Position numbers and translations under genes: made by a program
Shown: positions 33,558 to 38,974 of the stretch, in pieces
How the letters are laid out: each line of letters begins with the position of its first letter
How positions within the stretch are numbered: the stretch's first letter is position 1
Notes under the pieces: generated by a model
What the model saw: the letters and a program-made list of their open reading frames with translations, nothing else
Told to the model about the DNA's origin: nothing
Database searches by the model: none
Assembly: GCF_026240635.1 (NCBI RefSeq)
Contig: NZ_CP110848.1
Coordinates: forward strand, 1,676,501 to 1,740,500
DNA from: Trichothermofontia sichuanensis B231
GTDB lineage: Bacteria; Cyanobacteriota; Cyanobacteriia; B231
DNA length: 64,000 bases
Reading direction: 5' to 3'

Positions 33558-35636
33558 TTAATAGCCACTGCCAATGACCGTAAAGGCAGACCAATAATAG
33601 GGATGCCTAAACTCTGCTGGGAGGGTACGGCTATCGCTGGGCAGGGCAATCGGGGTTTGGCGGGTGAGGCGGAGGGTATCCCCTTCCAGGCGGGTTTTGC
33701 CATGCAGCATGGCTAATTGGGCTTGACGGAGGGCTTCTGCTTTCGTGGGGGCCGTATGTAAATGGCGATAAAAGTCACTGATCAGCCCTAGCGTTGCGGC
33801 ATCACTGACATCCCACAGGCTCCCGATCGCAGTTTTGACGCGAGCACCCAACGCGACCCCCGCAAACCCTAACTCGGCTTGCTCATTCCCCAAGGCGGTG
33901 CGGCAGGCACTCAACACTAACATTTGAATGGGCTGGTTCTGACCTTGCAGGGCTTGCATCCAGCTAGGCAGCTGGTTTAATTTTAATCGCTCACCCCAAA
34001 ATTGAATATAGGACTGTTGGGCTTGGCCAGGAGAAAAGTGGGCATGGGTGGCGAGGTGCAAAATCCCAAACCGTTGCGTTCGGTTGGCCTGTTCCACCTG
34101 GGCGATCGTGGCTTGCTGATTCAGGAGACCTTGACCTTGCCAAACCCCACGGGTGACGTTTTCCACCTCGATCGCCGCCGCCGGTAAGGGTTGTTGCCCC
34201 TGGGTGCTCTGGGAAATACCCATTGCCAGCACGGGTTGATTGCGCAGCGTCGCCGTGCCATAGTCCGTGAGGGCAAAGCTAGGGATGAGGGTCAGGCTAT
34301 AGCGCTCGATCAGAAACTGTTGGCCATCATGTAGAGCGGCAAAGGGGAGCGATCGCAGGCCCACATCGGCAGAAATTTCCAGGGTTTGAATTTGGTTAGC
34401 CGTCAGTTCCGGGAGAATTGGGGCAATGAGGGCCTGGTAGAGTTGCTGCGCAGGTTCTAGATAATCGGTCGGCTCCCCATTCTCACCGGCAAGCAGGGCT
34501 TGTCGAAACTGGGTGACCACCGCTTGCAAGCTGGCACGATCGGTCCGAAGTAACACTTTACGAACCGCCTGAGACGGGGGGGATTGGACCAGAGACCCCG
34601 CCGCTGGTACCTTTCTCGACAAGGGGAAGACTATCTGTAAAGGATCGAGGGCTTTGGAGAGGCGACCCAGGGGATAGGGCTGGCCAGCCGTGGGTGAGTT
34701 GGGCAAAACTAGGATCAGATCCAGGCGATCTTGCAGGGAAACGACGTAGGAAAGGGCTGGTTTCTTCCCAGTCTGCCGATGCCAATGGTTCAAGGTCTGG
34801 CTAATTTGGTCGATGCTGATCGCAACAGTGGGCGGGCGCAAGCCATAGTAATCAGTAAATTCCCGTGATCGATACTGCTCAACCAATTGCACAGCGGTTG
34901 CCAAATCCGCCTCCCGAAAGGCTCGTTCAAAGCTGGCGCGATCGCTGGGGGGTTGGGGCGGTTGGGCGATCGTGGGTTCACTCATGGCCGGATCAGGGAC
35001 TTCCCCAAACCACAGCACCGCATAGCCCTGGTAAATCGCGAGTCCGATCGCCTGCCAGCGTCGTTCCTGCCAGAGACCCCGGTTGAGCAACATATCATTG
35101 TGGTGAGAACTGGCCTGCCAGTCCTGTAGGGCTGAAGCAGCTGTTGCCCGGTAACCCGCAGGGCCGCCGTGGGCACTTTCGTAACCCATGCCGGGATAGG
35201 CTGTGCCTAAACGCTGGGGAGCGTTCCACATACAGGGATAGGTATTAGGCTGATTGGGGTTGTAGGGACAATCACTCCAGGCATGGGTAAACTGGCGCAG
35301 ATTCTCAGCCATATCCCGCACATGGCGATTGGCAACCCGATTCAGGGAGGGGGCCAGGGGGATAGGGGGCAAGCCATACTGGGCACGATACTGGTTAATC
35401 TGTTGGTATAGTTGGGTTTCTTCCGCATCCAGTTCATCGCCGGGACAAACAGCAGCACGCAAAACCTCGACCCCTGTACAGTTACCTACCGCAACTGTCT
35501 GGCTCAATTGATGACTAGGGGTGCCGACGGCGGGGGGAGCCGTGATCGACCCCGTAGCCGCGATCACCGTGACGCTCACACCCAGACCCCAAAGCCAGCG
35601 CTGCCATCCTTGACTCCTGGCGATTTGACTGTCCAT
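33558..35636 (-). CDS. Exported CAP (SCP/PR-1) domain fused to a CHAT caspase-like protease domain
   Basis: The 692-residue product (from ATG 35636) has a hydrophobic export segment (about residues 15-35), then a CAP domain at about 70-217: LYQQINQYRAQYGLPPIPLA, NRHVRDMAENLRQFTHAWSD, MGYESAHGG and LWFGEVPDP. A linker region (about 225-370) is followed by a CHAT domain to the end. The CHAT catalytic pair is present: His531 in LHLATHAHF and Cys578 in MLVLSACRTALG, with the GFAGVALGARVKTAIGSLWD strand after it. The C-terminal DUF218 gene lies directly upstream in the transcript. CHAT proteases are usually cytoplasmic and coupled to TPR or defence modules; an export signal plus CAP is unusual. 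Substrate unknown. Confidence 0.88.
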   Translation of the reverse strand: MDSQIARSQGWQRWLWGLGVSVTVIAATGSITAPPAVGTPSHQLSQTVAVGNCTGVEVLRAAVCPGDELDAEETQLYQQINQYRAQYGLPPIPLAPSLNRVANRHVRDMAENLRQFTHAWSDCPYNPNQPNTYPCMWNAPQRLGTAYPGMGYESAHGGPAGYRATAASALQDWQASSHHNDMLLNRGLWQERRWQAIGLAIYQGYAVLWFGEVPDPAMSEPTIAQPPQPPSDRASFERAFREADLATAVQLVEQYRSREFTDYYGLRPPTVAISIDQISQTLNHWHRQTGKKPALSYVVSLQDRLDLILVLPNSPTAGQPYPLGRLSKALDPLQIVFPLSRKVPAAGSLVQSPPSQAVRKVLLRTDRASLQAVVTQFRQALLAGENGEPTDYLEPAQQLYQALIAPILPELTANQIQTLEISADVGLRSLPFAALHDGQQFLIERYSLTLIPSFALTDYGTATLRNQPVLAMGISQSTQGQQPLPAAAIEVENVTRGVWQGQGLLNQQATIAQVEQANRTQRFGILHLATHAHFSPGQAQQSYIQFWGERLKLNQLPSWMQALQGQNQPIQMLVLSACRTALGNEQAELGFAGVALGARVKTAIGSLWDVSDAATLGLISDFYRHLHTAPTKAEALRQAQLAMLHGKTRLEGDTLRLTRQTPIALPSDSRTLPAEFRHPYYWSAFTVIGSGY

Positions 35637-35681: not shown

Positions 35682-36473
35682 TCACAGCCACCCTAACCCT
35701 CGATAAACCGCAATCCCGATATATTCCTTCAACGCGCGAGTGGTTTTTGCTAGGGCGTCGGCATCGGGCAGCCAATTGAGGACGAATGCCTGGGGTTGGG
35801 TACGCCCAAGGGCACGATCGGCATCGGTATATAAAAAGTCCGTGGGAGCGGCGATCGGGTCTAACCCCTGCCGTTGGAAAATTAACATTGCACGGGGCAT
35901 GTGCATAGCTGAGGTGACCAGCAGAAACTGCTGCACCCCTTTTTCAGCCAGAATGCGCCGCACATTCACTGCATTCTGATAGGTATTGAAAGACTCAGTA
36001 TCCAGCAGTATCGCTGAAGCCGGTACCCCCAAACGCCTAGCCAGATCAGCCATATCGGCAGCCTCGGATTGCCCACCCCCCATCCAGGAGATACGCCCGC
36101 CACTGAGCACCAGCCACGGCGCTTTACCCGCCTGATACAACTGGGCACCATAGAGGACTCGATCGCCCGCTGCAGCAAGATCAACACTAGGCCGCGGCGG
36201 CAGCGCTGGTTTTGTGCCCCCGCCCAACACCACGATCGCCGCAGCAGACGGTAAGGGGCCAACCGGAACATGTTGCTGCTCCAGGGAAGAGACCAGCCAG
36301 AGAGCCGTCCAAGGGCTACTGCTGATTAGGAGAATAGCCCATCCCAGGGCGATCGCTGCGTGAGCGAGCCGGGGCCACCGCCGCCGACTGAACAGGGCCA
36401 CCCCCAGCAGCACACAAGTCAGCCCCAGGGGATAGATCAGGAGCGGCAGCAGTTTAGATAGAAAAAGCAACAT
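35682..36473 (-). CDS. DUF218 membrane protein (ElyC/SanA/YdcF family)
   Basis: The 263-residue protein has two N-terminal membrane segments (about 5-28 and 36-55) and a DUF218 domain: AAIVVLGGGTKPALPPRPSV, LVLSGGRISW, ILLDTESFNTYQNAVNVRRI, and LLVTSAMHMPRAMLIFQRQG. Family members such as E. coli ElyC act in envelope and peptidoglycan lipid-carrier homeostasis; the activity is not settled. Its stop is 46 bases before the start of the CAP-CHAT gene on the same strand, so the two are likely co-transcribed. That would place both products in the cell envelope. Confidence 0.88.
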   Translation of the reverse strand: MLLFLSKLLPLLIYPLGLTCVLLGVALFSRRRWPRLAHAAIALGWAILLISSSPWTALWLVSSLEQQHVPVGPLPSAAAIVVLGGGTKPALPPRPSVDLAAAGDRVLYGAQLYQAGKAPWLVLSGGRISWMGGGQSEAADMADLARRLGVPASAILLDTESFNTYQNAVNVRRILAEKGVQQFLLVTSAMHMPRAMLIFQRQGLDPIAAPTDFLYTDADRALGRTQPQAFVLNWLPDADALAKTTRALKEYIGIAVYRGLGWL

Positions 36474-37465: not shown

Positions 37466-38974
37466 CTATTGCCTGTTGTTGGCTGTAAGGTCGCTGTTAA
37501 GGTTAACGTGCCCTAGATCCTCCCTACTGGTCGGCTCTAACACGAAGTCTTGGCGCTGGAGCAGAGCAGCTATGGCAATGACCCAATGGAGCGGCGGGTG
37601 GGGAAGATGACCCCTGGGAGCCGTTTCTAGATCAAAAATCAAATGCCGCCAGTCCAACCAGAGGGCTTGCAGGGACCAACCCAGGCGATCGCTGAAAGTA
37701 TACCAGGCATCCAGATCAGCATAGGGTGTGCCCACCAAGCTGTACCAAACCTGCTGTTGAACACAAAACCCAAACCGTCCGCCACTGCTGTTATACCAAA
37801 GGCGATCAATCGTGCGCAGATCCACTGCCGGCAACTGTTGCAGATCCTCCAACCGCAACCAGCCCGCTGCCTGTCGCCCCGCAAGTTTCAGCATTAGGCC
37901 CGTTGTTTCTGCATCAGCCCACTGCCACTGTTGCGCTCCCAAGTGCTCCCGCAAGGGGCCATAGTCCACCCCCGTGGCTGAAATCAGGGGGACCGATTCT
38001 AAGGTAGATAGGGGTGGAACGGATAACACCGCAACCCTCGCGCTGCCTGCTTGTTCCTGAGGCGCAGGCAGTGGTTGATCGCCCCCATTTGTCGCGTTGG
38101 CAAGCCTAAGCGGCGAAGCCGAGATCCGATCCGTTTCCCCGATCGTCGGTAACTGACTCAGCCAATCCCGCACGGTTTGGGGGCGATCGCGGGCCTGGAG
38201 GGCCATCCCCTGTAGGATCGCCGCATTGGTGGCTTCACTAATCCGGGGGTTGAAGCGGTTGGGCGGTTTGAGAGCCGCCTTGGCAGCACGGGCATGGGCA
38301 GAAACCGGAATCTCCCGCGTCAGCACATAGTAGAGGGTGGCAGCAAGGGCATAAACATCGGAAAATTCACCCCGCAGGGCTTCGCGGATATATTGCTCGA
38401 TCGGGGCAAACCCGTGGGTCATCACCAACGTATAGGCTTGGCTGGTATCCGGGATAAACTCCCGCGCTAGCCCAAAGTCAATGAGAACCGCTTCATAGCA
38501 GGGAGCCGCCGGCGGTGAGTCGGCCACCTGTCGCATCATGATATTTTGCGGCTGGATATCCCGATGGAGTAAACCCTTCTCGTGGATCGTGCTCAGGGCG
38601 CTGCCAATCTGGCGAATGTAGGTCAGTCCCTCCGCCTCCGACAGGGCACCCCGTTCCTCCACCCACTCCCAAAGCGTTCGACCCGCCACATATTCCATCA
38701 CAATGCAGGGAAGATCGCCTTCCTGAAAAGCATTCTCGATCTGGACAATGTGCGGATGGCGACACAGGGCAAGTCGCAACGCCTCATCCCGAAAGCGATC
38801 GCAACGGTGACTAAAGTCCTTCTCCTGGCGGAGACTATCCTTCAGGGTTTTAATGACCACCTGCCGATTCCGGGAATCTCGCGCCAAGTAGGTAATGCCA
38901 AACCCCCCCACCCCCAAGGGTCGCTCGATTGTATAGCGATCGCCGTGGAGGGTGTGCCCTGCGTTCCAACTCAT
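37466..38974 (-). CDS. Ser/Thr protein kinase fused to a GUN4 domain
   Basis: The 502-residue product has a Hanks-type kinase domain (residues 1-275): glycine loop GVGGFG at 21-26, VVIK lysine 42, catalytic loop HRDIQPQN at 137-144, DFG at 166-168, and the APIEQY activation segment of cyanobacterial kinases. The catalytic-loop lysine of HRDxK is glutamine here (Q141). After a linker comes a GUN4 domain (about 335-460): DYGPLREHLGAQQWQWADAE, DLRTIDRLWYNSSGGRFGF, and RLGWSLQALWLDWRHLIFDL. GUN4 binds Mg-porphyrins and stimulates Mg-chelatase, so the fusion could couple tetrapyrrole level to phosphorylation. No membrane segment is seen. Confidence 0.92.
   Translation of the reverse strand: MSWNAGHTLHGDRYTIERPLGVGGFGITYLARDSRNRQVVIKTLKDSLRQEKDFSHRCDRFRDEALRLALCRHPHIVQIENAFQEGDLPCIVMEYVAGRTLWEWVEERGALSEAEGLTYIRQIGSALSTIHEKGLLHRDIQPQNIMMRQVADSPPAAPCYEAVLIDFGLAREFIPDTSQAYTLVMTHGFAPIEQYIREALRGEFSDVYALAATLYYVLTREIPVSAHARAAKAALKPPNRFNPRISEATNAAILQGMALQARDRPQTVRDWLSQLPTIGETDRISASPLRLANATNGGDQPLPAPQEQAGSARVAVLSVPPLSTLESVPLISATGVDYGPLREHLGAQQWQWADAETTGLMLKLAGRQAAGWLRLEDLQQLPAVDLRTIDRLWYNSSGGRFGFCVQQQVWYSLVGTPYADLDAWYTFSDRLGWSLQALWLDWRHLIFDLETAPRGHLPHPPLHWVIAIAALLQRQDFVLEPTSREDLGHVNLNSDLTANNRQ

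Follow-up and report, generated by a model that had tools for sequence, protein, structure and literature searches.

CHAT proteases and their described settings

CHAT-type proteases of known role, i.e., those of Craspase, separase, and HetF, function within the cell or at the divisome. In Craspase, the catalytic residues are H585 and C627 (PMC9729208). HetF from Anabaena is a CHAT protein of the envelope and divisome with an active-site-dependent phenotype; its CHAT domain lies within residues 1-555 and is accompanied by one transmembrane segment and TPR (PMC8406250). In the open-access literature, no report could be found that mentions a CHAT domain along with two-partner secretion, SCP, filamentous hemagglutinin, or the exoproteome.

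Modular architecture of the CAP-CHAT protein

In the window, i.e., the whole stretch of 64,000 nucleotides from Trichothermofontia sichuanensis B231 that was analyzed, a complete and uninterrupted ORF on the minus strand (33558..35636, stop codon included, ATG at 35636) encodes a CAP-CHAT protein of 692 amino acids. The source genome consists of one contig of 4.44 Mb and is 99.8% complete. Both domains announced by the original prediction score above the Pfam cut-offs in this ORF: CAP is matched by PF00188 at residues 79-186 (E 1.2e-6, 29.8 bits versus a cut-off of 21.1) and CHAT by PF12770 at residues 394-690 (E 1.8e-62, 211.8 bits versus a cut-off of 24, model positions 2-289 of 289).

The following parts are all encoded on the minus strand. 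A putative export signal, recognized by hydropathy and from exported relatives, spans about residues 1-37 (35526..35636), with a core at about residues 15-31 and a plausible cleavage site near AVG/TP. It is followed by a domain of a cyanobacterial CAP subfamily at about residues 52-222 (34971..35483), delimited by the Pfam match and by alignment, and by a proline-rich linker visible in the sequence at about residues 223-229 (34950..34970), which connects CAP to the CHAT unit; model confidence is low at residues 193-225. The conserved CHAT unit comprises region 230-393 (34458..34949), common to signal-peptide-CHAT and TPS-CHAT proteins, and the CHAT domain itself at residues 394-690 (33567..34457), where the codons of H531 and C578 occupy 34046-34044 and 33905-33903, respectively. 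Only five cysteines can be found in the whole protein, namely four in CAP (C53, C64, C123, and C135) and C578. Pfam detected no TPR repeats, which sets the protein apart from TPR-CHATs of the Craspase type, and no TPS domain (PF05860), though it is present in paralogues, which separates it from TpsA proteins.

The CHAT domain and its catalytic dyad

The residue numbers H531 and C578 proposed for an intact His/Cys dyad were correct, and both residues, which align with H585 and C627 of Craspase, occur without exception in the alignment of 52 CHATs. The solved Craspase CHAT proteins were matched weakly by a profile built from 14 CHATs (E 0.01-0.2), the motifs of H531 and C578 falling on H585 and C627 (chain numbering) in the profile alignment with the solved structures. 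In the AlphaFold model, pLDDT is mostly 70-97 over residues 231-690, and mostly 85-97 at residues 231-310 and 361-400. Foldseek matched the model of the CHAT unit to Csx29/TPR-CHAT, then to separase, DdvA, SAVED-CHAT, and gingipain; no description of DdvA with CHAT was found in the open-access literature. Because of the invariant dyad, the alignment with Craspase, the AlphaFold model, and the structural matches, this CHAT is likely to be an active protease, a prediction drawn from sequence and model. Exported CHAT units are Cys-poor (L026, L009-L012, L020-L025, and the TPS-CHAT rows). Across the final 460 residues, 19 of 26 TPS-CHATs contain no Cys besides the catalytic one, and the remaining 7 contain three, the catalytic one included.

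The exported CHAT branch of cyanobacteria

The original prediction started from CHATs as mostly cytoplasmic proteins, a premise that is wrong for this branch, where the nearest kin are TPS-CHAT and signal-peptide-CHAT proteins. In the tree, the CHAT under study sits among signal-peptide-CHATs (support 99/95), in a wider clade of signal-peptide-CHATs and TPS-CHATs (support 99/99) that stands apart from TPR-CHATs. All 20 long relatives with fetched N-termini combine TPS and CHAT, and Pfam confirms the TPS domain in four TPS-CHATs, including three paralogues from the source genome. Of the 11 CHAT proteins encoded there, about 8 have an N-terminal hydrophobic segment and 3 lack one (one start codon being uncertain). 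The idea of an outlier among cytoplasmic CHATs was consequently rejected on the basis of the N-termini and the tree, the nearest clade being exported; since export is the norm for cyanobacterial CHATs of this branch, the predicted export of this one comes as no surprise.

The closest tree neighbor, L021, is a minus-strand ORF of 629 amino acids in which a signal peptide precedes a separate N-terminal module, about 120-150 residues long and dissimilar to CAP. At L158:4121-12249 (genome G231), the genes of a signal-peptide-CHAT, a ShlB-type TpsB, and a TPS-CHAT adjoin, which suggests that a CHAT protease is exported by two-partner secretion. The TPS-CHAT ORF of this trio (L158:7639-12249) opens with a partial glycosyltransferase-2 domain before the TPS domain (Pfam), and a glycosyltransferase-2-like start is indicated for the TPS-CHAT ORFs of L107, L111, and L115 by N-terminal resemblance to it; such unusual starts may be mis-starts or real fusions. 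At L160:3752-14616 (genome G002), signal-peptide-CHAT, TPR-CHAT, and TPS-CHAT genes can be found within about 11 kb.

The CAP domain and probable export of the protein

The profile of the CAP subfamily matches the solved SCP-domain protein 4ifa (E 3.5e-4); a PDB search with the single protein gave weak CAP matches, that to 4ifa having come from the profile search. In the AlphaFold model, the CAP region has a pLDDT below about 65, no CAP relatives being among the alignment rows. H118, E153, and H179 are invariant in 20 of 20 sequences of the CAP alignment, and the helix Glu position is variable, with Ala in the protein under study. These three residues are presumably those of the His-Glu-Glu-His tetrad of the CAP cavity, the usual fourth residue, i.e., the helix Glu, not being conserved here. 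About 20 CAP relatives at 46-61% identity can be found either alone or combined with RTX, VHL-beta, or other modules. One member of the CAP subfamily, encoded at L164:6072-7058, carries a fused VHL-beta domain and starts with a signal peptide.

The original prediction of an exported protein is supported at the sequence level by a signal-like N-terminus, by the exported CHAT relatives, and by the pattern of CAP cysteines. The signal peptide, judged by hydropathy only, has n-, h-, and c-like regions of modest hydropathy: the hydrophobic stretch 15-31 has a mean KD of 1.63, the highest of any 17-residue segment of the protein, yet modest. Four cysteines at fixed positions are present in 10 of 10 signal-type CAPs versus 0 of 10 other CAPs, several of which are RTX-type, and the counts for four cysteines against a hydrophobic N-terminus are 8/1/2/10 (Fisher p 0.002), a correlation that may partly reflect shared ancestry. 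The putative export is better supported by the CAP cysteines and the exported relatives than by the hydropathy of the N-terminus.

Distribution of the fusion

The architecture is unusual, as had been supposed: the phylogenetic survey gave the fusion in this genome only. No second CAP-CHAT protein was found in 386 genomes of the phylum, 59 relatives, 390 genomes of the class, and 36 of one family; these sets overlap, the queries were the whole protein or its CAP, and the lineage of the window was sampled thinly, its genus and family being represented by this genome alone. There were no other copies in the genome contigs, none covering 80% in plasmids, and no relative of the protein in viral contigs. 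Regarding 'Rosetta stone' arrangements, no CAP gene adjoining a CHAT gene was found at the CAP loci, with flanks of up to about 11 kb and less at contig ends; in genome G448, a TPS protein lies close to one CAP gene, but it has no CHAT.

Proposed role and alternative explanations

We regard it as reasonably probable, judging from the sequence, that the protein belongs to the exported-CHAT branch of cyanobacteria and works as an exported cysteine protease with CAP as its N-terminal module, in which CAP docks the enzyme and CHAT makes limited cuts. The Sec pathway would carry the protein across the inner membrane, and the four CAP cysteines would pair in two disulfides, so that C578 would be the one free Cys and the nucleophile. 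CAP would dock the enzyme to an envelope component, whether lipid, glycan, or protein, and a ligand or partner would relieve a closed state of the CHAT unit, which may then cleave exported proteins, surface proteins, or its own linker at a limited number of specific sites. In other members of the branch, the part of CAP would be played by a TPS adhesin-like body or a short linker. By this sequence comparison, CAP probably replaced the usual N-terminal module and positions the protease in the envelope; wall-linked proteolysis or controlled lysis, as initially proposed, is a possible, putative role.

The main rival is autoprocessing that releases CAP. CHAT would mainly cut its own chain in the linker after CAP, which would be freed as a diffusible extracellular effector, and the protease would be a maturation device comparable to the C-terminal proteolytic processing of other large exoproteins. 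While the proline-rich linker between CAP and the CHAT unit, the fact that long TPS exoproteins end in the CHAT unit, and the occurrence of the same CAP subfamily as free secreted proteins are consistent with such a device, free-standing signal-peptide-CHATs exist without any passenger domain and no cleavage motif was found, and we consider this explanation unlikely. Recent chance fusion, in which both halves are merely tolerated and have no selected joint function, would fit the restriction to one genome; however, neither half looks decayed, since both keep the residues that are invariant in their families and CAP shares 56-61% identity with the signal-peptide CAPs found in distant genera, so that chance alone is hardly credible.

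The locus itself bears on two further explanations. The neighbors identified by Pfam are a DUF218 gene, a sigma factor, psaK, and a kinase-GUN4 gene; none of these genes is a CRISPR gene, and no association with Cas7-11 of the Craspase type was seen among them. The kinase-GUN4 gene (37466-38974, minus strand) encodes a protein kinase fused to a GUN4 domain. The DUF218 gene (35682..36473, minus strand) encodes a membrane protein of the SanA/ElyC/YdcF type (PF02698, E 2.6e-38) and had been taken as a pointer to an envelope role. It ends 45 bp upstream of the CAP-CHAT gene on the same strand, with no predicted terminator or promoter between them, which would suit a two-gene operon for wall precursor metabolism or lysis. 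However, DUF218 homologues can be found in 47 of the 59 genomes searched and no CAP or CHAT gene lies beside them at any of 29 inspected loci, so the adjacency carries little functional weight. DUF218 as a conserved functional partner was rejected for lack of such neighbors, an envelope-biogenesis pair appears very improbable, and the two genes may be co-transcribed without a conserved functional link. An inter-cell conflict, with the secreted protein acting on neighboring cells or predators, also seems a poor prospect: the protein appears exported and lineage-restricted, the N-termini are modular, and CAP as well as caspase-fold proteins are encountered in conflict settings, but no immunity-like partner gene was seen, the neighbors being the widespread DUF218, the sigma factor, and psaK.

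The exported cysteine protease with an N-terminal CAP remains the preferred explanation. A large cyanobacterial branch with an intact dyad on predicted secreted proteins suggests that caspase-like proteolysis takes place at the cell surface, for which no substrate or regulator was found described in the literature searched. In this branch, the CAP-CHAT protein is a compact and testable member and could tie CAP, a fold of poorly understood role in bacteria, to a defined enzymatic output, while the broader family of exported or TPS-linked CHAT proteases is of more general interest than the CAP fusion alone. More tentatively, and somewhat short of probable, it can be hypothesized that cyanobacteria use a broad, undescribed family of extracytoplasmic separase/caspase-like CHAT proteases, many of them TPS cargo, and that the N-terminal targeting modules of this family are exchangeable. 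The CAP-CHAT protein would be one such swap, in which CAP binds or senses an envelope ligand to gate or place extracellular proteolysis.

Comparison with known systems

What is new here is CAP as the front end of a probably exported CHAT, exported CHATs of this branch being themselves common in cyanobacteria. The gingipain RgpB, which is exported, is a caspase-fold cysteine protease like the CHAT studied here but belongs to a different family (about 10% identity). Csx29/TPR-CHAT of Craspase and separase share the caspase-like fold and the His/Cys dyad; in contrast, they have a TPR N-terminus, are cytoplasmic or nuclear and CRISPR- or cohesin-linked, and are only about 9-13% identical to this CHAT. 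HetF is likewise a cyanobacterial CHAT protein but, as described, not of the signal-peptide-CAP type. The secreted CAP subfamily (L058, L087-L092, and L101) has the same four-Cys CAP at 53-61% identity, either stand-alone or joined to a different N-terminal module (VHL-beta in L058/L164), but never with CHAT. TPS-CHAT exoproteins (L077, L078, and L080 in this genome, and many elsewhere) belong to the same exported branch with the same dyad, but carry at their N-terminus the FHA-type TPS domain for two-partner secretion that is missing here. Cyanobacterial signal-peptide-CHATs (about 440-630 amino acids; L020-L026, L049, and L009-L012) have the CHAT unit (230-690), the dyad, and, as far as hydropathy indicates, the putative export signal in common with the CAP-CHAT protein, whereas in place of CAP they display a short linker or, as in L021, another N-terminal module.
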